Positions 353 to 52,489 of a stretch of DNA of 64,000 nt are shown here, one piece after another; position 1 is the first letter of the stretch, and every line of letters starts with the position of its first letter. The DNA comes from Ahaetulla prasina (taxonomy: Eukaryota > Chordata > Lepidosauria > Squamata > Colubridae). The notes under the pieces were generated by a model. The model did no database searches. It saw nothing but the letters and a program-made list of their open reading frames with translations, and was not told the DNA's origin. The DNA lies in NCBI RefSeq assembly GCF_028640845.1, contig NC_080539.1, positions 298,389,516-298,453,515 of the forward strand, given 5' to 3'. Made by a program: the position numbers and the translations under genes.

Positions 353-2337
353 CTTAATTTCTTAACTTACAACTCATCAATTATGATTGTCATGTGGAAC
401 TAGGGTACTTCTTTCTTTGCTATCATTTATTTTATGTAAAATAAGTCTTTGTTAGTAATCATTGTCTCTTTGACAGATTTATATACAATCTCGTAGAGAT
501 ACTCTAATATAGAACACATTTTAAATGATCTTTTGTGTCTCTTCTATCACAGACAAAAGCCTTCTCTATATTAGTTTATTTTTTTAAATGCTACTGGCCT
601 TTTTTTCTCCAGAACATAAGACCATCATATAAATGTTTCTGATGTGTGTTTTATGACTCTTGTCTTTCTGATTCTATTTACCTATTTGAACACAATGAAA
701 TTTCTTACTGATTAACATTTCAGCAAGGCCCTAAATGAATCTTACAGATTTTTTATCAAAATACATTTGACTATTTGCAGACTGTTTTTAAGAATTAAAA
801 AAAAATTTTTTTTAAACACAGAAGCACTTTTTACTCTGTCTTTCCATGCTTTGGCCTTTAACCAAGGTTTGCTTGATCAGAAACAAACAAATTGTATGTT
901 GTTTCTCCTCAACTTTATTTTAATACTGTTTATGGACTACTGTACTGACTTTTATTATCTATATTACAAATTCTTTTAGGTATATATTTTAGACAAGTTT
1001 AGCATATTACATCCCTTCCCATAATAGATTATTTCAAAAATCTAGCATACATGTTAGCCAATTCATCTAGTCTAAGATATATCTTAATTATGCTTTATGT
1101 TCAATTTGGTCTCACTTCTGTCCATATCTCAAAAGTTATTCTTTTTGAGATCAAGCATTAATTTTATGACTATTTATATTGAAGATGATTCACTAATCAT
1201 TGATAATGCCAGTTAAATTTTGATATAATTTGGAAGTATACCAACTAAAGCTTTGGAAGTATACCAACTAAAGCTTCAATCTGAAAACTGTTTCTCAAGA
1301 AATATATGAGAGTTGGAGAGGGGTTGGTAAATGGGCAGAATTGTTTCGCATGCAAGCCCATTTTTCAGGTTATTCATCAATTAATTTTTCATAGTATCAA
1401 TTAAAAATTTTCTTCTCTAGTAGATAGTTTGAATGCACCCTAGATGAAATCCAAAGCAGAATACATTTTTCTGTAACATCCTATATTACTTTTTAGCAGA
1501 CCTCTGTTACAAGGTAACAAGGAGAATACAAGTTATCAAAACTTTTCTCCAGCTGCTTGAACAGAATTCAAATATTTCATCTACAAACATGACTAATACA
1601 GGGTGAAAGTTGAACTTCCTTATCCGACATTTTTGTTGTTATTAAATCATGTGTCTGCTAGTTTTCTTCAGAAGGATAAAGTAACACAGTAGGATAAAAT
1701 GAAGAAGATGATGCCTTTTTTCTCTTGAGGAAGGAGATGCCACAAGTTGTTGAAAAATAACTATGCAACTTACATTAGTTTCATTTTTTTAGTCAACTAT
1801 TTGTCTGTAATCATTTTTTTCCTGTCAATTATTTATTCTGCATATTCCTTTGTGTGAATCTTTCTCATTTTCTGAAATCCTTTTTACTTTTCAACTTACT
1901 AAAGAACGTACATGTATGAATCAGCTGACACTTTAAAAAGTAAAATATATTTATTTTCTCTCCAAAGGGTAAATTGTAAGCCTATGACTGATACAGTGTT
2001 TACATTTGAGTGGTGGCCCATGAGTCTGTGCTTGGCCTGTTAAGCTTTTTCAGATTCAAAGCAGGAAGTTCTTGAAACTTCTTACAGTTATTTCAATGAA
2101 CCTATGTTTGAAATTTCTATATGGAAGAAAGTTGTTCCCATCAACATTTTACGTATATTAAGTTACACTGTGGCTTAACTACTAACATGTCTATATCATA
2201 TTCTGCATGTGGACATATGAAAAACGTCTGCATCTCAAAAAAAGAGTCACTACTGATTTATGTCTTTGTGAATTTATAATTTATTTACTTAACGTATTAT
2301 AAGCAGATTTGTAAGGCAAAAATTCTCAGATATACAG
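353..2337. other. GPHN intron, no recognised element
   Basis: AT-rich intronic DNA. I see no coding exon or clear transposon. A perfect 23-bp tandem duplication lies at 1230-1275. Confidence 0.6.
1230..1275 (+). repeat. 23-bp tandem duplication
   Basis: The unit TTGGAAGTATACCAACTAAA-GCT occurs twice, back to back and without mismatch, in otherwise unique DNA; it looks like a recent replication slip. Confidence 0.85.
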
Positions 2338-2590
2338 TAGCACTTAGCAATAGTTATAGCACCTAGCCTTATGTAACCCCTCACAGTGCTTTAAAGCCCT
2401 CTCTAAGCAGTTTACAGAGTCAGCATATTGCCCCCAACAATCTGGGTCCTCATTTTCCTGATCTCAGAAGGATGGAAGGCTGAGTCAACCTTGAGCCGAT
2501 GAGATCCAAACTGCCAAACTGCTGGCAGCCAGTGATCAGCAGAAGTAGCCTGCAGTACTGTATTCTAAGCATTGCACCACCGGGACTCAG
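2338..2590 (-). mobile_element. tRNA-derived SINE (snake family with GGTTGACTCAGCC core)
   Basis: The minus strand carries the core GGTTGACTCAGCCTTCCATC, then AATGAGGACCCAGATTGTTG, then a tail with CTGTAAACTGCTTAGAGAGG. The same consensus recurs at 16388-16615 and 62343-62562 and, with a different tail, at 16085-16372. A GA-rich tract (2588-2616) adjoins it. Confidence 0.75.
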
Positions 2591-3362
2591 AGAGAGAGGG
2601 AGAGAGAGAGAGAGGAAAAAACACATAAAACAGTCATTAAAATCAAGTAATCAACTTTTATCTCAGCAAATACTACATAACAAAAAGGCAGTAGTGTCTA
2701 AAGTATTGATGGCATAGGAGAGTTAGTCTAACGTCTAATCAAAATTAAAAATTAACTAAATAGAAGATGTTTAAGTATAGATTAAATCTGAAGCATGTGT
2801 TTTCTATCTATTATTTACCAACAGAAATTAGTTATATTGTATGCTTGATTACAATTTTTGATTGGAAGTAATCACTGCTTCATATGAAGGACCACTGAGA
2901 ACTATCTTTCTCAGAAACTTAGAATAAACTCAGTATGGTAACATTGTATGTGTTTCATAGGACAGCCGACTCAGCACTTGCCTGAGCGTTTTGTGTAACC
3001 ATCAGTTTCAGGCCACCTACGTGAAGCTTAATAAGTCATCTACAAATGCTTAAAAGATGCCATTTGTTTGATCGTATGCTCTTTAATGACCCAGTTTGTC
3101 TTCATAGACTTTATTTTTAAAGATCATATTCTTGATCTTGTTATAATTAATCAGCAAGAATTCTCTATAGAAAGCAGCCGGTGACTGCAATGCTGTCATT
3201 AGTCCAGTGGATGATGGGTATAAAATTGGTTTATCATCCATATGAGACAGTTTCAGCACTGAAACATTTTTATTTTCTAACTTTGGAAGACAATCCAACA
3301 ATTTCAGTATATGTTTTATTTGGGTAGGATTTCACAAAAAAGAAACAATGGTTCTTACATAT

Positions 3363-3987
3363 TGTTCTGTCCCCCACCTCAGTCCGGGAGGCATGCAAAC
3401 TGACCCAATTAGCCAGCAATTTAGTCCACGGCAACTATCAGCTCTGGCAGCAAACTAGCGTCCGTCTGCCAAGGTTTTCTTTATCTCCTTGATGCCGGCG
3501 TCGCAGAGCTCGTTACCGGAGCAACCAGGAAGTCAGGAGCAAACAGCAATTCAGGCCAAATGCTCAGTCAGATAGTTCAGCTCAAGTTTTCTCCAGTCTC
3601 CAACTCCAGTCAGTTGATTTGTTCGTCACGAAGTAGTATAGCAGCCCCTCCTTCTTTTATACCCTGTGGGGTGTGGCTCCGTGACTCAGCACTTTCTAGG
3701 CTTGCCCCACCCCTGCTTCTGTTGTTCCCGCCTCTCTTACCTACGAAACCTGGGATCTAACCAGGACTGATTGTCCACAGCTGGGTCTGGAAGCGTTGCC
3801 TGGGCAGGGGGAGATACAGGAGACAGAGGCCTCGTCACCTCCTCCACCTGGCCTGCCTCTGGCTCCTGGAGCTGAGCCAGAGAGGCTGGCCCTGCAGAAG
3901 GGAGCTCTGACGGCCCTTCCCCCTCACTCTCTGAGTCACTTTCAGGCAGGGGGAAGGGCCCGAGAGGTGGGGGCTAGAGCCACAACA
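3363..3987 (-). mobile_element. Solo LTR, 5-bp target duplication CATAT
   Basis: The 625-bp element runs TG...CA with short inverted ends (TGTTCTGTCC / CCACAACA) and is flanked by CATAT at 3358-3362 and 3988-3992. On the minus strand it has a TATA box (GGGTATAAAAG, about 3653-3663) downstream of a GC-rich U3-like part. It shares the block GGGGTGTGGCTCC-TGACTCAGCAC with the solo LTR at 33974. No internal retroviral genes are present. LTR retrotransposon versus endogenous retrovirus cannot be decided from the LTR. Confidence 0.82.
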
Positions 3988-3999
3988 CATATATATTTT

Positions 4000-6650
4000 T
4001 TGCAGAAATTACAGATCACCTTGTTCAATAGCAACTGTAACATGTTTCTCATGAGTTTCTCTACACCAGATATATTTATAGTAATATAAATATATATATA
4101 TGTAAACAATGTGATATATGTTATACTTCTGATGCATTATTGAAATTTATACCTAGTTCTCTGGCCATTACCAAAGCAATATCACAGAGTGATTGGTATC
4201 AATTCTCCAATTAACTGGCAGCACTTTATTTTAAATTTTTTTGCAAAATTTGCCAACATGATATACATAGACAATAGATGAAGAGACATGTTTCTTCAAT
4301 AAATTCAGTGCTTTCCAAGAATCATTGCTGAATGAATTCAGGACTGTTATTTCAGCTGGTAGTTCTCCAGGAACATTTCCTGTAACAGCTGTCCTCTGTG
4401 GACCCAAATATTAGTATGTTGAAGCATGAATGTGGCCATTGCAAAGGCAACTCTTAAATTAACAATTTTAAGCTGAAGAAAAATATATATATATAGGAGA
4501 TATTTTATATTTTTATTAAGTTCAATACTCATGAAAAAATAAAAAATTGTGATAAAATATTCTTTACCACAGTCCTTAAGATAGTCATAGAAATAGTTTT
4601 CCATTTCTTTTTTCCAGGATAGTTTTTGGCCTCTAAATCTATTCTATAATGCTAGAATTACTTAGTGCTATTCCATCCCGTATTGACAACAGTTTACCCT
4701 TCATAATGTCTCAGGCCGGGCAAAATAGGCTGGCTATTCAATGATAGTGGCAGTAAGTATTCTGGGTTAATGCAAACCTGGAAAGAGAGCTATATAGATG
4801 GAACTCCTGTTTATAAAGTAAATCTAATGTTTTGATGTTAGTTAGAAGAAAATAACTCTCACATCATAACTGCTTCTGTGTTTTGTTTATCTTGCTTCCT
4901 TCATTACAGCTTACCTAATCCATGGCATTTTCCTCTGTCTTGGCTAATATTCTATATATGTATATACAGTATGTATGTATTGGTCCACTGAGTTGGAGTT
5001 CTAGTGATGCTTCTACATATTGCATGTCTTTGATGATAAATAGTAACTCTTTCTGTAAATTAAATCTTTCTACTGTTCTTGAAAAATTGCTTTCAATCAG
5101 TGGGGAGGTTTGTTTTGTTATTATTGTTCCATATATTGTATTATACATGAACTTAAAAATTATTTATAAGAATTAGCTTTTTACTTTGAGTTAAAAATTC
5201 TTCATCTTTATATAGTATTTTATTTGACTTCTTAGCTTCTAACTACTTATTCTGTGCTAATCTTGTTATGATATAGTAAAGGTAAGTAATTTCTTGAAAC
5301 TTTCCTAAAGACTATAGGCACGTGTTCAGCATTTTTCCTCCGCTTCCTTATACTGTGGTTTTGGTTTGGTAAAACTTTTTATTTTAATTTTTATGTTTAA
5401 CATGAATATTTCATGACTATAGCACTCAGAGTCTCTTTGACTTTAAATGAAAGATGAAAATGGATTTTTAAAACTTAACATTTATCACAGTTGCAGAGTT
5501 CAGCTCTATCATAGTTGACCTTTTTGTTAATAAGTATTATATATGCATTATTTTCCATCTCCTTCAATTTCTTAATTTCACCTTACTTAATATTCATTTT
5601 TATAGAGTTATTACTTAGCATTTTCAAAATTTAATGGACAAATGTAACTTCAAACCCATGAAAGCAATTTATCATTTTTTTAAAAAATACTTTACTAAAC
5701 AACAGAATGTAGCTACAATTTGTCTAAACCTCTTTTTCTAATCAGAACTCAGAACAAAGAAAAGAAAAAAATTATATTTAAAATTATAATACAAAAGACA
5801 TGCACATGTTATTTTCTGTGAAGAGACTTCCATGGAAAAATGGGTTGAGCTAGCAGAATCTTGTATATATTTGTTTTAAAGAAAGATCTATTATATTCAG
5901 CCATGTCTCAAAATAGAAACCGTTGCAATGTAGACAAAAATAATCACTTTTCTTTCAATATGTAGAATAACATAAGTGGCAGCCATATTGCTGTTCATGC
6001 ACCATTTTTGTAATATAGGATTCATAATGTTTTGAATATTCAGAAAAGCATAGGAAATAAAAGACTTCCTTTTCTTGTATTCTATCTCTTGTGCTTTAAT
6101 ACATACTTCTCAAAATAAAGTTTTGCCAGTTGCTTTGCAGTAAGATGCCTAGGATGTTCATGAGGATAGAAAAAGAATGGAAAAAGTTCATTCATGTATT
6201 ACATTTGGAAATACGTGGGAGACAGGCACTTATTTTTCTTATACCCGAAGTTTATTATATGTGTGTAGCTATTTTGATATAAAGCCCATGCTAATTTAGA
6301 AGATAATGGTATACAATATATTAAAATGGAACTGCTAACGAGTAACAGCTTCTTATTAGATAGGGTTTCAGCTTTAAAAAAATCTGTGAAACTCATTTTA
6401 TCCCATGCAGTTTTTATCACTGCTTCTATGGACAGAAGGTAAAATTTCATAATATTAATCTAATAACTTGATGAGTGGTAAACTATAATTCATTTCTACA
6501 ATAAGGTTCTTCCAAACAGTTGAGAGATTTTTCATTTTAACAGTAGCTGAATCATCATACAAGTTTCAGCTGTATTGTTGCTATACTATATTACTACTAT
6601 TTTTTTATTTTGTCCCTTCATTTGCTTCACTATAAATGGACTTAATGCAG
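4000..6650. other. GPHN intron, no recognised element
   Basis: AT-rich sequence with short TA runs (for example 4087-4102 and 4955-4975). Short ORFs here have no recognisable domains. Confidence 0.55.
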
Positions 6651-11365: not shown

Positions 11366-14288
11366 AGAAAGTTTATTTATTTATTTTTATTTATTTTATT
11401 TTGTCACAACAATATATGTAGGAATCATACAAAAGATTATATAGTATATAAACATATATGACTAAATATAAGGAGGTATAAGCATATATATAGAAAGAAG
11501 AAAAGAAAAACAATAGGACAGGAACGGTAGGCACGTTTGTGCGCTTATGCACGCCCCTTATGGTCCTCTTAGGAATGGGGTGAGGTCGATAGTAGAAAGT
11601 TTTTGGATAAAGCTTTTAGGATTATGGGAAGAGACCACAGAGTCAGGTAAAGTATTCCAAGCACTGATGATTCTGTTACAGAAGTCATATTTTCTGCAAT
11701 CTAGATTAAAGCGGTTGACATTAAGTTTAAATCTATTAGTTGCTCTAGTATTATTGCAATTAAAGCTGAAGTAGTCTTTAACAGGAAGGACATTACAATA
11801 GATGATTCTGTGAGTTAAGCTTAGGTCTTGTCGAAGGAGTTCCAAGTTTTCTAAGCCTAGGATTTCGAGTCTGGTAGGATATGGTATTCTATTGTTTTCA
11901 GAGGAATGGAGAACTCTTCTTGTAAAATATTTCTGGACACGTTCAATTGTATTGATGTCAGAGATGTGGTGAGGGTTCCAAACAGGTGAGCCGTATTCTA
12001 GAATTGGTCTAGCAAATGTTTTATATGCTCTGGTTAGTAGTGTGGTGTTTTGGAAAAGAAGCTACATAAGATTAGGTTTACAACTCTTAGAGCTTTTTGC
12101 TATGTAGTTGCAGTGGGCTTTGGCACTTAGATCATTTGACATGAAAACTCCAAGGTCTTTAACGGGATGGGGTCGTCTGTAAGGTAATGTCCATCTAGTA
12201 TGTACTTAGTTTGGGTTCTTTTTTCCTATATGTAAGACTGAGCATTTGCTGGTTGAAATTTGGAGCTGCCAATTTTTAGACCAAGCGGTTAGATGATCAA
12301 GGTCGTTTTGAATGATAGAAGTATTGTCTGTGATGTTAAATAGTTTGACATCATCAGCAAAGAGAACACAATTACTTGAGATATGGTCACAAAGATCATT
12401 AATGTATAGTATAAAGACTGTTGGTCCAAGAACGCTGCCTTGAGGAACGCCACTCTTGACAGGAACAGGATTTGATAGAGCATTGCCAATTTTGACCACT
12501 TGTTGTCTGTTAGACAGAAAAGCAGATATCCATTTGTGGAGGGGTCCTGAGATGCCATAGGATATTAGTTTTAGGAGAAGTTTATCGTACTACTGAGTCA
12601 AAAGCTTTGCAGAAGTCTATGTAGATTGCATCTATTGATTTGCCTTGATCAAGATTTGAAGTCCATATGTTTTTGCAGTGGAGAAGTTGTAAGTTACATG
12701 ATAATTTTTTTCTGAAACCAAATTGTTTGTTGGAGATTAGGTTGTTTGTTTCTAAGTGTGAGGTAATGGATTGGTTGATGATAGATTCCATGACTTTGCA
12801 GGTGACACAGCAAAGGGAGATCGGTCTGTAGTTTTCGACTAAGCTGGTGTCTCCTTTTTTGAAGATAGGGATGACTGTGGCTAGTGACCAAAGTTTGGGA
12901 AGAGAACTGGTAGTGAAAGCTTTATCAAAGATAATACTTAGGGGTTCTGCTATATTAATGGAAAGTTTTTTTAAGAAGTATGCACACAGTTCATCAGGTC
13001 CAATAGATAGCCATGGTTTTAAGTTGTGAAGAGCTTTTCCAACGTTGTCTTCTGTGAAATCTATATGAGTTAAATCATCATAATCATTGCTGGTATGTTT
13101 GTGGAAAGTCGGATATGTGTTATCGGAGTTAACAAAAACTGATCCAAAGAAAATGTTGAAGAGGTTTGCTTTAACTGTTTCGTCATTGCATTCTTTGTTG
13201 TTAGAATCTTTTAGTGGTGGGATGGATCTAGAGTCTTTAAGTTTATTGTTAACAAAATTATAAAAGGCACGATTGGAATTTGTGCGCATAAGATTCTCTT
13301 CTTGCTTGGTGTGGTAATTTGTGCATTCAGTTTTTATTTGGTTGCATATATTTCTGTAGCGGTTTTTGAAATTTGTAACATAGCCTTTTTTGTTTCTTTT
13401 CCAGAGGGATTTTTTTTTTGATTGAAGCTTTTTTATTGATATGGGTAGTTTGTTTTTCTTGATCATGGTAGTCATTTGTGGTACATATAGTTTAATGACT
13501 CTATTGATTTCAAGTAGGAAGACTCTATAGTGGTCTTCAGCGGTTATGCAGGTTGCAAACAAATTTTGCCAGTCCAGAAATGAAAGATCGTTGTTTATAA
13601 GGTCGTAATTGGCTTTTTTGAAGTTGTAGTTGGGAGTACTGTTGTTATGACGATTTAAGTATGGACGTATATTGAGACGAAAATCAATCATGCAGTGGTC
13701 ACTGTTGGAAAAACAGTCCACTGTTTTTAATTTGTAGTCCGTAAATTGAGTTTGAATTGTTGCAGAAGATGAGATCAAGGCAGTTGTTGAGTCTTGTATT
13801 GTTAGTTACAAGTTGTTCAAGACCTAGGTTTGTAACAGCGTTGTATAGTGTAGTATGGATTGGGTCAGTTGAACATTCATTAGTTGTCCAGTTAATGAGA
13901 GGTAGATTTAGGTCACCCAGGAAGATGAGAGGATATGGGCAAGAGGTAGCCCATGTTAGCATTGAGGTTAGCATATTTGCATGGGTAATGTCATAGTCAG
14001 AGGCTCTGTAGCATAGTAAGAATCGAAGAGTAGTGTCAAGTGATAGGTCGCATACAATAGTTTCAGGAAGAGAGAGTTTATGTGCTACTTGGATATTTTT
14101 TAGATTCAGTGACTTTTTGTAAAAGATAGCCACTCCACCACCTCTTCGGTTTTCACGATCTGATCGATAGACTTGATATTCTTTGTTTGAGATAATGGAG
14201 TCAGGAAGGGATGAGTTCAGCCATGTTTCACAAACAAAAATGATATCAAATGTGCCACTGTTTAATAAGAGGATAAGTTCAGGTAAGT
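11366..14288 (-). pseudogene. 5'-truncated non-LTR LINE with broken EN-RT ORF
   Basis: Read on the minus strand, the fragments run in order: an AP-endonuclease segment (ORF 13699-14133, containing FLGDLNLPLINW), reverse transcriptase (12582-13778, containing DFCKAFDSV), the FADDVKLF catalytic box (12206-12499), and a C-terminal segment (11558-11845). Frames shift between pieces, so the element is inactive. The 3' end (11366-11450) has the TTGTGACAAAATAAATAAAT-type tail. Clade is CR1/L2/Rex-like; I cannot place it more finely. Related copies are at 17223 and 50941. Confidence 0.85.
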
Positions 14289-14820
14289 TAAATATTTAGG
14301 AATAGAATTCCTAAGATAAAATTCTTATTATCTGAGCAAAGTGTTATAAGTTTATACCTAGCTGACAGAGTGAAATGTGATGACCAGATGCACCAACACA
14401 ATGAGATCTCTTTTATGTTAATACAGTAAATGCAAGAAAGTAGTCACAAATAATCAATGAAAGATAATTCCAATAAAGTAGATACAAGTAATCAATTTTC
14501 AATAATCAATTTTCAAAATATTTATGAAATACTATTAATATAGATAATAAAAGGTGACCTAATTTGAATAATTTAACCACAGAAGTTTTTCAAATTTCTT
14601 TCTTATGTCTTTTTTTAGACAGAGCTATTTCCCAAATTTGGATATCATGCATCTAATGAAAATGTATTTTAATTTTCAGTGTTTTAGTATAACAAATCCA
14701 ACAATCATTGCCTCACAAGAATTGAATCAATTGTTTATGTTACATTAATATTAGCTATAGAAATAGCTAACGTTTTAAGAAATATTGCAAAAAACTAAGA
14801 ACAGGATTTATATAAAAGTT

Positions 14821-15285
14821 ACCGTATATACTCGAGTATAAGCCGAGTTTTTCAGCACGTTTTTTGTGCTGAAAAACGTCCCCTCGGCTTATACTCGGGT
14901 CTATACGGCTTATACTCGAGTTTTTTGTTTTTTTTTTAAGCCCCTCGGCTTATACTCGAGTATATACGGCTTATACTCGAGTTTTTTTTTTTTTTTAAGC
15001 CCCTCGGCTTATACTCGAGTATATACGGCTTATACTCAAGTTTTTTTTTTTTCTTCTTTTTTTCACATTTTACCGGACGGCGCGGGGAAGCCCTGCCGGT
15101 GCAGTGAGAGGGCGGGCGGGGGCCGCCAGCCTTCTCAGCTGAGGGAGGGAGGGTTTCCCCAACCGGTAGGTGCCTCATTTCCCACCCTCGGCTTATACTC
15201 GAGTCCCCAGTTTACCCCAGTTTTTGGGGTAAAATTGGGGACCTCGGCTTATACTCGGATCGGCTTATATTCGAGTATATACGGT
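14821..15285. mobile_element. TIR element, short copy 1 (accgtatatactcgag family)
   Basis: The 465-bp element is bounded by inverted ends ACCGTATATACTCGAG and a near match of its complement, with AGTT on both sides (14817-14820 and 15286-15289) as a possible 4-bp target duplication. Inside are repeated CTCGGCTTATACTCGAG blocks, a hairpin TTTTTCAGCACG...CGTGCTGAAAAAC-type, and a GC-rich core (15074-15180). No transposase. Superfamily not assigned. Confidence 0.8.
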
Positions 15286-16084
15286 AGTTATTATTGAGCA
15301 ATGTTGTGCTTCAAAGTTTAGTGATCATAGTCTAAGAAATACATTTCTTGATTTTTTATCAGCAACTATGACTGATATCTTCAAAGGCAAGATCTTTTGG
15401 TACACAGGCCATAGCAATTGAGCAGGCACTGACTGATTAATTTTATACCCTGTCTTTATAGCCAAGCATCCTGGCTTCTCTTTGGTCTTTAGCTGCACTG
15501 ATTTGCAATTGGTGCAGGTTGATGAGTGCTGGTCTCTGATTATATTTTGTGCCTAATCTTGATTGGTCACTTTGGTGGTCTTGGTTTCAGATTGGTCCTT
15601 TGTTCATTTCAATTTCTAGTTGATCATTTTCAGAGTCCAGATTCCTGATTGTTTTGTTTTGTTTTATTTTGTTCTGGGTTCAAGTTGGTTAGTCTGAGCT
15701 ACTGAGTCTGATTGGTTTCTTATCCAAACAATTTCTGATTTGTCCATTGCCACAATCACTAAATCCTGAAGTCCAACACTGTCCAACAAATAGCATACAC
15801 CAGTATAATTATCAATTATTCTTTAATGAATGTATTAGTTGCTCAACTCCAATAGATTCTGGGTAAATTGAATAATTCTGTCAATTTCTTCAAAAATTTA
15901 AACCAAAAAGGTGCATTACTATGAAAAAAATGTAATATATACCCAACTTACATGTTAATTAAAATAATGTGAACTCAAAAGATTACAATCCATGTAGTAA
16001 AATTTTACTGGAGTATAATTCAGTATGGGTTATCTTCATGGTGGCCTATCAGAATTGATAAATACAATTTTATGTTGCTAAACA

Positions 16085-17222: not shown

Positions 17223-18330
17223 CGTTCCTGTCAAACAGACAACTAGTGGTCAAAATAGGCAGTGCCCTATCAAATCCTGTTCCTGTCAATAGCGGCGTTC
17301 CCCAAGGCAGCGTTCTTGGACCAATATTCTTGATATTATACATTAATGATCTCTGTGATCATATTATAAGTAATTGTGTTCTCTTCGCTGACGATGTTAA
17401 ACTTTGTGTCAGAATGGTCAAAAACTTGACAACTCCAAATCCCAACCAGCAAATGCTTTTTCTTACACATTGGAAAAAAGAATCTGAACACTAAATACAA
17501 GCTCGATGGACATTACCTTGTAGATGACCCTCACCCCGTCAAAGACCTTGGAGTTTTCATATCAAAAGATCTAAGTGCCAAAGCCCATTGCAACTACATC
17601 GCAAAAAAGGCTTTAAGAGTTGTAAACTTAATCATGCATAGCTTCTTCTCCAGAAACACTACACTACTAACCAGAGCATATAAAACATTTGCTAGACCAA
17701 TTCTCAAATACAGCTCGCCTATCTGGAACCCATACCTCATTAATACAATTGAGCGTGTCCAGAAATATTTTACAAGAAGAGTTCTCCACTCCTCTGATTA
17801 CAACAAAATACCTTATGTCACCAGACTTGAAATCCTGGGTTTAGAAAATTTAGAACTCAGCTGCCTTCGACATGACCTGAGTTTAACTCATAGAGTCATC
17901 TGTTACAATGTCCTTCCTGTTGAAGAATACTTCAGCTTCAATCACAATAATACACGAGCACACAATAGATTTAAGCTTAATGTGAACCGCTTCAATCTTG
18001 ATTGCAGAAAATATGATTTCAGTAACAGAGTTGTTAATGCCTAGAATGCACTACCAGACTGTGGTCTCTTCCCCAAATCCCCAAAGCTTTAACAAAAAAC
18101 TATCTACTACTGACCTCACTCCATTCCTAAGAGGTCTGTAAGGGGCGTACATAAGAGCACCAACATGCCTACCGTTCCTGTCCTAATGTTCCCTTGATTG
18201 TATCCAATTTTGTATAGTTATTACATACTTATGCTTATATATGGTATAGTTATTTCATGCTTATGCTTATATATACTGTTGTGACAAATAAATAAAATAA
18301 ATAAATAAAATAAAAATAAAATTCTGCAGG
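17223..18330 (+). pseudogene. Fragment of the same LINE family (RT and 3' end), plus strand
   Basis: Frame 17246-17400 carries PVNSGVPQGSVLGPI and the FADDVKLC box. After an internal deletion the C-terminal region resumes at 17634-18044 (TRAYKTFARPILKYSSPIWN). The element ends in TGTTGTGACAAATAAATAAA. Frameshifts and stops make it non-functional. Confidence 0.85.
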
Positions 18331-31985: not shown

Positions 31986-31990
31986 TATTT

Positions 31991-32382
31991 ACCGTATATA
32001 CTCGAGTATAAGCCGAGTTTTTCAGCACGTTTTTTGTGCTGAAAAACTTCCCCTCGGCTTATACTCGGGTCTATACGGCTTATACTCGAGTTTTTTTTTT
32101 TTAAAGCCCCTCGGCTTATACTCGAGTATATACGGCTTATACTCGAGGTTTTTTTTTTTCTTTTTTTCACATTTTACCGGACGGAAGCCCTGCCGGTGCA
32201 GTGAGAGGCGGGCGGGGAGCCGCCAGCCTTCTCAGCTGAGGGAGGGAGGGTTTCCCCAACCGGTAGGTGCCTCATTTCCCACCCTCGGCTTATACTCGAG
32301 TCCCCAGTTTACCCCAGTTTTTGGGGTAAAATTGGGGACCTCGGCTTATACTCGGATCGGCTTATATTCGAGTATATACGGT
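31991..32382. mobile_element. TIR element, short copy 2 (accgtatatactcgag family)
   Basis: A 392-bp near-identical relative of 14821-15285 with the same ends, the same CAGCACG...GTGCTG hairpin and GC-rich core; flanks ATTT / ACTT are a possible 4-bp duplication with one change. It lacks part of the repeated T-tract/CTCGGCTTAT block of copy 1. Confidence 0.8.
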
Positions 32383-44098: not shown

Positions 44099-44172
44099 GA
44101 CTATCTTAAACAGGTGCTGGATATTGATCTTCATGCCCAGATTCATTTTGGCAGGGTTTTTATGAAACCAGG
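44099..44172 (+). CDS. GPHN: GPHN exon: begins with catalytic Asp580 (residues 580-604)
   Basis: A 74-nt exon after ccaaatag reads DYLKQVLDIDLHAQIHFGRV and FMKP plus GG of Gly604, then gtaagt. Its first codon is Asp580; loss of this aspartate (to Ala) is a known cause of human molybdenum cofactor deficiency, and it is intact. The following 8.2-kb intron holds the unusual TIR and Penelope cluster. Confidence 0.97.
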
Positions 44173-44174
44173 GT

Positions 44175-44967
<793 letters not shown>

Positions 44968-45727
44968 ATATACTCGAGTATAAGCCGACCCGAATATAAG
45001 CCGAGGTACCTAATTTTACCACAAAAAACTGGGAAAAACTATTGACTCGAGTATAAGCCTAGGGTGGGAAATGAGGCAGCTACTGGTCAATGTAAAAAAT
45101 AAAGATAGAGCCAAGACCCGTGGACCGGCAAGCTATCTTTTCCAAAGGCGAAAAGAGGGCGAGTGAGAGGAGGGCGAGTGTATCAAACGCCAAGGGGCGA
45201 GAGGAGGGCGAGAGTGACAAACGCCCCCTCCGCCCCCTCCGAGGGCGAGAGGAGGACGAGTGAGAGGAGGGCGAGTGTGTCAAACGCCAAGGGGCGAGAA
45301 GAAAGTAAATAAAGAACTGAGGCGTGCAATTTTGAGGATACGCACTGGGCTTGGGAGGTAACGGGAGGGGAAAGAGAATCGTTCCAAAAGCCACTCGCGA
45401 GGCGGAGTTTGCGGGAGTATCTGGATTCCCCTTCTGACATCGCCCTCAGCGAGCCCTCCTAGTGCTGCTTCGACGCCGTTTCAGCCTCCAAAGCGACTGT
45501 CAGTCTAAATCCACTTCGCTCGAAGCCCCTCGTTTCTTCCTTTCCCACTACACACCTGAGGTCCCCGAGGCGACGCGCGTTACCCGAGGCGGCGGGGCCC
45601 GCCGTCCTCACGTGCCGCTAATCCCCCCTCCCCCAGCAAATCCAAGAGTAGCTGAGAAAGAAAGCGGGCTGGCTTCACCCTCCTCCCCGACCTGCGCAAC
45701 GTGCCCGGGCTCCACGCTCGCCTTTAC

Positions 45728-45773
45728 CTTCGAAGAAGCGCTGCAGAGCCTCGGTCTCGTCCACCACCTCCAT
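45728..45773 (-). pseudogene. MYRF: Captured first coding exon of MYRF (fragment)
   Basis: On the minus strand ATG (45773-45771) opens MEVVDETEALQRFFE and the first base of a Gly codon, followed by GTAAAG, a good splice donor. This matches the N-terminus of myelin regulatory factor as I know it, including a coding-exon end inside the 16th codon. MYRF is a membrane-tethered transcription factor; only its first 15-16 residues, and presumably adjoining 5' UTR/promoter and intron 1 DNA, are here. No downstream MYRF exon is visible. It is antisense to GPHN. The match is short and from memory of the family, but no mismatch is seen. Confidence 0.72.
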
Positions 45774-46082
45774 AGCTGGGCCATGCACCAAGCGGTCGGG
45801 CTAGTCGCCGAGCCCGCACAGGGGCATCCCCCTGGCCAGGGCGCCTCGAGCGCGCAACACCGGCGGCGCGCGCCCCGGAGCCCTTTTCGCCCTGGGACTT
45901 CGCACTAGGCTCCACCGGACTCTGGCCCCGAGCTGGGGCATGCCTCCGTCGCCTGAGCAGAAGCCACACGTTTTCCACCGGGGCGATTGGCTCCCGGGCT
46001 CCCCCAGCCGGCACTTCATTGCGGCCTCCACCCACCCACCCACCCCCACTGCCGCTTCGCACTCAATTTCGGCTTTTTGGAG

Positions 46083-46945
46083 AGGAGGGCGAGAGTGACA
46101 AACGCCCCCTCCGCCCCCACCGCGAGAGGAGGGCGAGAGTGACAAACGCCCCCTCCGCCCCCACCGCGGGCAAGAGGAGGACGAGTGAGAGGGGGGCGAA
46201 AATGTCGAATGCCCCCTCCGCCCCCCGCCCCCTCCGCCGACCACCGCCGCCGCCGCCATCAAAAAGCGGCGGAAGAAAACGCCGAGGCCAGCCGCCGCCC
46301 AAAACGAGCCGGCCGAGCTGGCAAAGCATGCCGGCAGCATTTGGGCTCGTCCTGCCGGCACTTCAGGCGGCCTCCCCACCCACCCACCCCACTGCCGCCG
46401 CACTCAATTTCGGCTGGAGAGGAGGCGGGGTGACAAACGCCCCCTCCGCCCCCTCCGAGGGCAAGAGTAGGACGAGTGAGAGGGGGGCGAAAATGTCGAA
46501 CGCCCCCTCCACCCCCCGCCCCCTCCGCCGACCACCGCCGCCGCTGCCGCCATCAAAAAGCGGCGGAAGAAAACGCCGGAGGCCAGCCGCTGCCCCAAAA
46601 CGAGCCGGCCGAGCTGGCAAAGCATGCCGGCAGCATTTGGGCTCGTCCTGCCGGCACTTCACGGCGGGCTCCCCACCCACCCACCCCACTGCCGCCGCAC
46701 TCAATTTCGGCTGGAGAGGAGGCGAGGTGACAACGCCTCCGCCCCCTCCGAGGGCAAGAGGAGGACGAGTGAGAGGGGGGCGAAAATGTCGAACGCCCCC
46801 CTCCGCCCTCCGCCGACCACCGCCGCCGCCGCCATCAAAAAGCGGCGGAAGAAAACGCCGGAGGCCAGCCGCCGCCCCAAAACGAGCCGGCCGAGCTGGC
46901 AAAGCATGCCGGCAGCATTTGGGCTCGTCCTGCCGGCCCAGCTGT
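46083..46945 (+). repeat. GC-rich minisatellite, three units of about 295 bp
   Basis: The landmark GCGAAAATGTCGAA recurs at about 46197, 46488 and 46782, and ACTCAATTTCGGCTGGAGAG at about 46402 and 46699. Each unit also has GACCACCGCCGCCGC, AAAAAGCGGCGGAAGAAAAC and GCATTTGGGCTCGTCCTGCC. A partial unit (46020-46082) precedes them. Proline/arginine-rich ORFs across it change frame between units and are not genes. Confidence 0.88.
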
Positions 46946-47173
46946 TCCCGAGGGCAAAAAACCCTACAACTACAACTAACTCTGCAAGGGTAGACTCGAG
47001 TATAAGCCGAGGGGGCCGCTTTTCAGCACAAAAAACGTGCTGAAAAACTCGGCTTATACTCGAGTATATACGGTATATATATATATATATTTGTTTTCTG
47101 AGGTTTTCGCGGGTGTTTGTATGTAGGTCTTTGGTTATTCGGGTTTTCTCCCGCGTAAAATTTGAAGTGTCTT

Positions 47174-47213
47174 GGCGACGTTTCGACGAAATCCCATTCG
47201 TCATCATCAGGCT
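47174..47213 (-). ncRNA. Hammerhead-ribozyme-like motif, mirror copy
   Basis: The same motif as 48783-48822 on the minus strand in the other Penelope arm: CTGATGA at 47210-47204 and GAAACGTC at 47084+100 bases (47184-47177), with the 6-bp stem intact. Confidence 0.48.
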
Positions 47214-47271
47214 AGGTGCTTACAGCTTCCTATTTGTAGGAGAAATGTATGATCACTGCTGTTTCTTCCTT

Positions 47272-48522
47272 TTAACTGCTAGTGGGGGTTTGAACTGATT
47301 GGTTGGAAGCTTGGCTGTGTTCTGATTGGGTGGAGGTGTGTTCTGATTGGTTGGGAGTTTGGCTGTGCTCTAATTGGATGGTGGGGTTGTCTGTGCTCTG
47401 ATTGGCTGGGGGTGTGTTCTGTTGGGGGGGGCTTAGTTGTTCTAGGTTGGTTTGAGATGCAGGGGGATTTGAATTGGTGAGTTGCATTGCTGTTGTTTGG
47501 CTTCGCGTTTGTGGTCGTGCTTCATCTTCATGGTGGGTGTCAGTCTGCTGCATGTATGGATTGGAGGGGTTTGAAATGGCTAATGATGCAGCTGCGGTCT
47601 GGCTTCTGGTCCGTGGTCGTGCTTCATTATCGGTGTGGGTTTGAGTTTGCTTTCTGTATGGATGTGTGGTGGTGACATGCTGTGTGGCACTCACGAGTGT
47701 GGGTCTTGCGTCATTCTTCATGTTAGGGACTCGTTTGTCGATAAGGGCGGGTTTCCAAATGGCTGGTAGATGAGAGGTATCATCTCGTTTATTCATGCTG
47801 TGTGGGCATTTTTCTATCTCGATGGCTTCTCTGATTATTCTGTTGTTAAAGTGTTCAGTTTTGGCGATAGTTCTGGTATTTTTAAAATCAATTTTATGTC
47901 CTGTGGCTTTAAGGTGTTGGACCAAGAAAGAAGTTGGTTCCTCTTTTTTGATTGAGTTCTTATGTTCTTCAATGCGTGCACTTATTCTTCTGTTGGTTTG
48001 TCCAATGTATGTGGTGCTGCAGGAGGTGCATGGGATTTCATATACTCCTTGATTTTCTAACTTAATTTTGTCTTTGGGGTTTCTTAGGATGGTGGATATT
48101 TTTCGGTTTGTGCAGAATGCTGTCTTGATGTTGTGTTTGTGGAGGATCTTGCCGATTCTGTCTGTGGTACCTTTTATATATGGGAGGGGGGCTTTGCCGT
48201 TTTCTTGTTCTCTGTCTTGGATTTTAGTGGGGGTTTCTTTATGGATTAGTTTGGTAATCTTATTTCTTTGAAATCCATTGGATGTTAGTATGTTAGTGAG
48301 AGTGTGCAGTTCGGTTTTTAGGTGTTGTTCATCAGCCAAGCGTTTTGTTCTGGAGATGAATGTCTTGGCTACAGAGTTGATCTGAGCTGGGTGGTGATGT
48401 GAGAGTGCATCATTAGCCATTTCAAACCCCTCCAATCCATACATGCAGCAGACTGACACCCACCATGAAGATGAAGCACGACCACAAACGCGAAGCCAAA
48501 CAACAGCAATGCAACTCACCAA
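47272..48522 (-). pseudogene. Penelope GIY-YIG endonuclease region (C-terminal part of PLE ORF)
   Basis: A 416-residue open frame. From about residue 35 on it is PLE-like: LPYIKGTTDRIGKILHKHNI (113-132) and a GIY-YIG nuclease with GVYEIPC (159-165), TTYIGQTNRR (170-179), a catalytic Arg in SARIEEH and a downstream Glu. The last 150 residues are a low-complexity Gln/Thr/Ser/Pro tail. The first roughly 34 residues come from antisense reading of the opposite arm, so the ATG is an artefact of the inverted junction. No RT precedes it, so it cannot move by itself. Confidence 0.85.
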
Positions 48523-48782
48523 TTCAAATCCCCCTGCATCTCAAACCAACCTAGCACAACTAAGCCCCCCCCAACAGAACACACCCCCAGCCAATCAGAG
48601 CACAGACAACCCCACCATCCAATTAGAGCACAGCCAAACTCCCAACCAATCAGAACACACCTCCACCCAATCAGAACACAGCCAAGCTTCCAACCAATCA
48701 GTTCAAACCCCCACTAGCAGTTAAAAGGAAGAAACAGCAGCGATCATACATTTCTCCTACAAATAGGAAGCTGTAAGCACCT

Positions 48783-50945: not shown

Positions 50946-51600
50946 TATTTTATTTATTTTATTTATTTATTTATTTATTTTGTCACAACAATATATGTAA
51001 CTATCATACAGAAAGGTTATATAGTATATAAAGGTATAGAAGAAAAGAAAAACAATAGGACAGGAACGGTAGGCACGTTTGTGCGCTTATGCACGCCCCT
51101 TATGGTCCTCTTAGGAATGGGGTGAGGTCAATAGTAGAAAGTTTTTGGTTAAAGCTTTTAGGATTATGAGAAGAGACCACAGAGTCAGGTAAAGTATTCC
51201 AAGCACTGATGATTCTGTTACAGAAGTCATATTTTCTGCAATCTAGATTAAAGCGGTTGACATTAAGTTTAAATCTATTGGTTGCTCTTGTATTATTGCA
51301 ATTAAAGCTGAAGTAGTCTTTGACAGGAAGGACATTACAATAGATGATTCTATGAGTTAAACTTAGGTCTTGTCGAAGGCGACGGAGTTCCAAGTTTTCC
51401 AAACCCAGGATTTCAAGTCTAGTGGGATAAGGTATTTTGTTGTTTACAGAGGAATGGAGAACTCTTCTTGTAAAATATTTCTGGACACGTTCAATTATAT
51501 TGATGTCAGAGATATGGTGAGGGTTCCAAACAGGTGAGCTGTATTCTAGAATTGGTCTAGCAAATGTTTTATATGCTCTGGTTAGTAGTGTAGTGTACAA
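50941..51600 (-). pseudogene. Third copy of the 11.4-kb LINE family, 3' end only
   Basis: A 167-residue open frame on the minus strand (51100-51603) contains TLLTRAYKTFARPILEYSSP and is nearly identical to the 3' part of 11366-14288, with the same TTTTGTCACAACAATATATG end. The first residues of the ORF come from flanking DNA. It lacks RT and EN. Confidence 0.85.
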
Positions 51601-51604
51601 CATT

Positions 51605-52489
<885 letters not shown>

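Follow-up and report, generated by a model that had tools for sequence, protein, structure and literature searches.

A MYRF gene start carried by a multicopy Pack-TIR family in Ahaetulla prasina

Introduction

Animal Pack-TIRs are elements with terminal inverted repeats (TIRs) that hold a DNA-level copy of a piece of a host gene. A survey of 100 animal genomes describes 370 of them in 55 genomes, with only four multicopy (given as 1.4%) (PMC8277862). The TcMariner type is the second commonest, accounting for 115 of the 370 (Tan et al. 2021, PMC8277862). Multicopy cases are described there as lying far from their parent genes, and repeats are invoked in template switching. One of them, in a frog, carries the 5' UTR of CAPSL on three chromosomes. 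Another, Ssk-FB4 of Drosophila, is a repeat-rich element with a captured gene start, nearly the whole gene having been taken up, and has TIRs of ~700 bp and target duplications of 9-10 bp (PMC8277862). Plant Pack-TYPE elements are likewise described as non-autonomous carriers of gene pieces (PMC8903248). The first-pass annotation of the DNA analysed here held such captures to be rare in vertebrates; the 370 animal cases qualify this, although no more than four of them were multicopy.

Here we describe an element in a stretch of 64,000 nucleotides of Ahaetulla prasina DNA (the window, C1:298389516-298453515; genome searched, 1.77 Gb in 745 contigs). The element is one member of a multicopy, non-autonomous Pack-TIR family that carries the start of MYRF. 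Like the surveyed animal cases it is a TIR element with a DNA-level gene copy, it is repeat-rich and it lies far from its parent. In contrast to the surveyed cases, as the survey describes them, the copy includes a start codon, the first coding exon and its splice donor, and a remnant of it has been amplified in tandem units. The block is ~780 bp long, compared with a median of 224 bp in the survey, and is found at no fewer than ten loci, compared with the three chromosomes of the frog family (PMC8277862). Neither MYRF nor GPHN, the gene in which the window element lies, is named in the main text of PMC8277862, supplementary lists aside, and a literature search on MYRF with transposons in squamates gave no match. 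The process has already been described in animals, and the MYRF case is an unusually clear example of it. The origin of multicopy Pack-TIRs has so far been deduced from few cases, four in the one animal survey (PMC8277862). In this genome the parent, the junctions, several stages of structure and a large number of loaded copies can be seen side by side, which makes it possible to establish in what order capture, tandem growth, loss and transposition took place.

Results and Discussion

The MYRF parent gene and the captured block

Positions 45773-45728 of the window (minus strand) hold a 46-nt exon consisting of ATGGAGGTGGTGGACGAGACCGAGGCTCTGCAGCGCTTCTTCGAAG (= MEVVDETEALQRFFE, 15 residues) plus one base, followed by the donor GTAAAG (45722-45727, minus strand). 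MYRF of the same genome has the identical 46 nt and the identical donor at C1:256989262, confirming the first-pass annotation, which had read the segment as the first coding exon of MYRF. Human MYRF variants are reported as c.46+2T>C on NM_001127392.2 (PMC8852845) and c.46+4245 (PMC7815889), indicating that the first coding exon of human MYRF also has 46 coding bases. Our query was a MYRF protein sequence whose middle part was confirmed by Pfam and by four distinct PDB sequences. It matched the exon with E-values of 8.7e-05 in the long query and 1.3e-07 for the exon alone; the chance of finding its 15 residues at random is ~2-5e-12 (128,000 positions, assumed 20,000 genes). The query also matched proline-rich, low-complexity sequence on the plus strand at 45873-46526, with a better E-value (2.6e-06) than that of the exon in the long query; as identity is 20-25% and the frame contains stop codons, we do not accept it as MYRF.

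The query also matches exon 2 at C1:257047244 (22 residues) and four later exons up to 257063579, giving a first intron of ~58 kb. Since the same exon and donor are followed ~58 kb on by exon 2 and the later exons, the locus at C1:256989262 is, on its sequence, the genuine MYRF and the source of the copy. It lies on the window's own contig, 41 Mb distant, and no TIR (at ≤4 mismatches) was found around it in the 9.9 kb fetched (L009). An intron of the MYRF gene holds TIRs of the same family without the MYRF block, just after the exon 2 match on C1 (L024, 5173-5563).

In the own-genome search, window 45297-46074 (minus strand) aligned to C1:256988961-256989732 with 95% identity over 783 alignment columns, far more than the 46 nt of the exon. 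The block comprises exon 1 together with ~300 bp on the upstream side of its ATG and ~430 bp of intron 1. The first-pass annotation was therefore right that sequence upstream of MYRF, its exon 1 and the beginning of intron 1 were copied by a TIR element; comparison with the parent corrects the extent from 45330-46020 to ~45297-46074. The same comparison led us to drop the reading of 45303-45995 as an insert replacing 134 bp of repeat unit, since part of the repeat unit is itself derived from MYRF. Intron 1 sequence retained past the donor rules out a processed (retro)copy.

A TIR element in an intron of GPHN

The block lies inside an element of 2,110 bp (44964-47073), which sits within an (AT)n tract in an intron of GPHN. 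Its ends are inverted over 25/25 bp, with the left TIR at 44964-44988 (plus strand) and the right TIR at 47049-47073 (minus strand). TA adjoins the right end; the left flank, within the (AT)n tract, reads AT where the family has TA. GC-rich DNA is found on either side of the block, as a minisatellite at 45088-45296 and as a core at 46075-46990 that contains minisatellite, 'mid' segments and tandem 282-bp units. The ends are common to two related short elements with TA on both sides and no MYRF block, A (14820-15287) and B (31990-32382), which differ by 8 mismatches in 393 columns. The left end of the window element is 88% identical to both, and the right end 95% and 93%. The window has 24 occurrences of a 16-bp inner motif (≤3 mismatches), grouped in three clusters, where 0.19 would be expected.

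A GPHN protein query gave 14 exon matches in order on the plus strand between 10438 and 58218 (E up to 0.002). The element falls between the matches at 44099-44173 (25/25 residues) and 52409-52480 (23/24 residues), in an intron of ~8.2 kb. The GPHN location, the GC-rich repeats on both sides and the ends shared with two 0.4-kb elements had all been proposed in the first-pass annotation, and each was borne out. TA duplication together with TIRs of <100 bp, the criterion of PMC8277862, would place the family in the Tc1/mariner superfamily. There was no Rfam match in 44700-48000, no match to the TIR patterns in viral and prokaryotic contig collections or to a degenerate exon pattern in viral contigs, and no Pfam match in the long frame across the array (45776-46990, plus strand). 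An open frame of 422 aa adjoining the element (47272-48540, minus strand) resembles GIY-YIG weakly, at E 0.024 and thus below the cut-off, and may belong to a Penelope-like element.

Loaded and array-only elements

Further copies with the same insert do exist. The own-genome search returned 81 matches from the 40 candidates scored out of 514, so the copy number is a lower bound: at least 10 loci on seven contigs carry the MYRF block (the window, L010 and L011-L018). Both TIRs were found in eight of these ten, with TA on both sides in seven of the eight and AT plus TA in the window; in L010 and in L018 a single TIR was found (≤4 mismatches). L010 (C8:43440000-43447000; 1618-4674) is rearranged, with four tandem MYRF blocks, the last cut short, separated by inverted pieces of array. 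Exon and donor are exact at five of the ten loci (the window, L012, L014, L015 and two blocks of L010); one base is deleted in L011, L013, L017 and L018, and four bases in L016 and one L010 block.

The family shows the features of a Pack-TIR, namely family TIRs around the insert, an insert copied as DNA from a host gene, a parent in the same genome and TA target duplication. Its chimeric junctions also recur at several sites whose flanks differ, which is the mark of a multicopy Pack-TIR.

The simplest loaded elements (L014, L015 and L017) have the layout Lend-MAIN-tail-mid-Rend, in which MAIN and tail derive from the parent and mid is the element's own. One extra tail-mid is found in L011, L012, L013 and L016, and two in the window, whose MYRF-derived remnants within the tandem units lie at 46343-46415 (tail) and 46639-46712 (both minus strand, 88.6% to the parent). 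The mid segment at 46505-46638 of the window recurs in arrays. We also fetched 20 of the ~29 array-only loci listed. All 20 lack the main block, have at least one tail (a MYRF remnant of ~72 bp) and have one mid more than they have tails. The tandem unit joins element to MYRF at a GCCGGC common to both, the element's own sequence being CCTGCCGGCCCAG and that of MYRF CAGCCGGCACTTC.

Capture from MYRF followed by transposition

We are highly confident that the block was captured from MYRF and then spread by transposition. A break or a stalled fork in the GC-rich minisatellite of the element may have led to a single template switch to the MYRF CpG island. A tandem unit would then have arisen at the shared GCCGGC, and its growth could have left the short MYRF remnant in the repeats of part of the copies and in a second set of elements. 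The simple history would begin with capture into the minisatellite and continue with tandem growth at GCCGGC, after which a second lineage lost the main block. The loaded element itself was probably moved by a transposase encoded elsewhere, on one occasion into the GPHN intron; no autonomous partner or transposase came to light.

The order of these steps, as distinct from capture and spread, can also be read the other way round, the family first carrying a MYRF piece of ~72 bp and gaining the full block later, by homology-guided copying at MYRF that replaced one mid. Exactly the first mid (~134 bp) of the 20 array-only elements is missing from the loaded ones, the remnant supplies homology at one edge, and the structure is fitted as well as it is by capture first. 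Against this order, the end regions diverge by 1.55% and 1.64% within the loaded and unloaded sets and by 1.74% between them, and the remnants differ from the MYRF parent mainly by indels, so that the two sets show no difference in age; the end regions do not settle the order. Among the 20 array-only loci fetched, no element had a mid without a MYRF remnant, although such a precursor is expected if capture came first. We regard the remnant-first order as possible, though doubtful.

Sequence shared among the copies bears on whether the loaded element moved at all. In an alignment of nine blocks (the window and L011-L018) the left junction is common to all nine, with small indels in L012 and L016, and the right junction to seven; L013 lacks four bases there and L018 is deleted. 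At 8 sites all nine blocks agree against the parent. Block divergence is 2.35-6.75% from the parent and 1.59-8.06% among the blocks, and their tree is a star with no supported inner branch, which gives no order of moves. The common left junction, the eight shared substitutions and the starlike tree together indicate one capture followed by transposition. Animal single-copy Pack-TIRs arise mainly by filling of a gap in place, which at the GPHN site would mean that the element came first and the MYRF DNA was copied in afterwards; here, however, the same junctions and substitutions recur at other loci, showing that the loaded element moved, and we consider such an origin very improbable.

It is similarly hard to believe that the copies spread by segmental duplication, even though L010 is rearranged and one repeat is common to the surroundings of three copies. 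The copies stop exactly at the TIRs with TA adjoining, and their 500-bp flanks are unrelated except for that repeat, which lies near L012, L013 and L014 in differing positions. GC-rich repeats do assemble badly, but an assembly error or a chance match is scarcely credible, as the block stands at ten loci on seven contigs and the chance value is ~2-5e-12.

CpG decay and predicted activity of the copies

Outside the elements, the window has an observed-to-expected CpG ratio of 0.24, compared with 0.89-0.93 for the eight loaded elements that have both TIRs. Transitions (C to T or G to A) are found at 31/1020 CpG positions vs 14/2492 other C/G sites in the seven blocks that are less diverged, a 5.4-fold excess. 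With L016 and L018 added, the nine copies give 46/1295 vs 35/3174, a ratio that falls to 3.2-fold because these two are diverged throughout. The MYRF parent shows CpG transitions at 0/148. With CpG transitions raised in the copies and absent in the parent, the copies seem to be recent arrivals that are methylated in the germ line, and most are probably silent. Their CpG islands have started to decay in the manner of methylated DNA. The family offers a natural test of how a CpG-island gene start fares once it has been copied to other sites, as the parent has lost no CpG at the compared sites and the copies have begun to do so.

A motif scan of the MYRF block turned up no GC box, TATA, NRF1, ETS or YY1 site. 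It gave a single CCAAT (45990), a single Inr-like site (45321) and, ahead of the start, three ATGs. We think it unlikely that some intact loaded copies start transcripts and splice the first 15 residues of MYRF onto host genes, and the CpG decay speaks against lasting promoter activity and an active island. If such transcripts were made, a single transposon family would have spread a mobile gene start across the genome of a vertebrate.

Elsewhere in the window, an open frame at 12582-13805 (minus strand) has a reverse transcriptase domain (RVT_1, E 8.3e-11), and frames at 11558-12061, 17430-18044 and 51100-51612 resemble it by eye.
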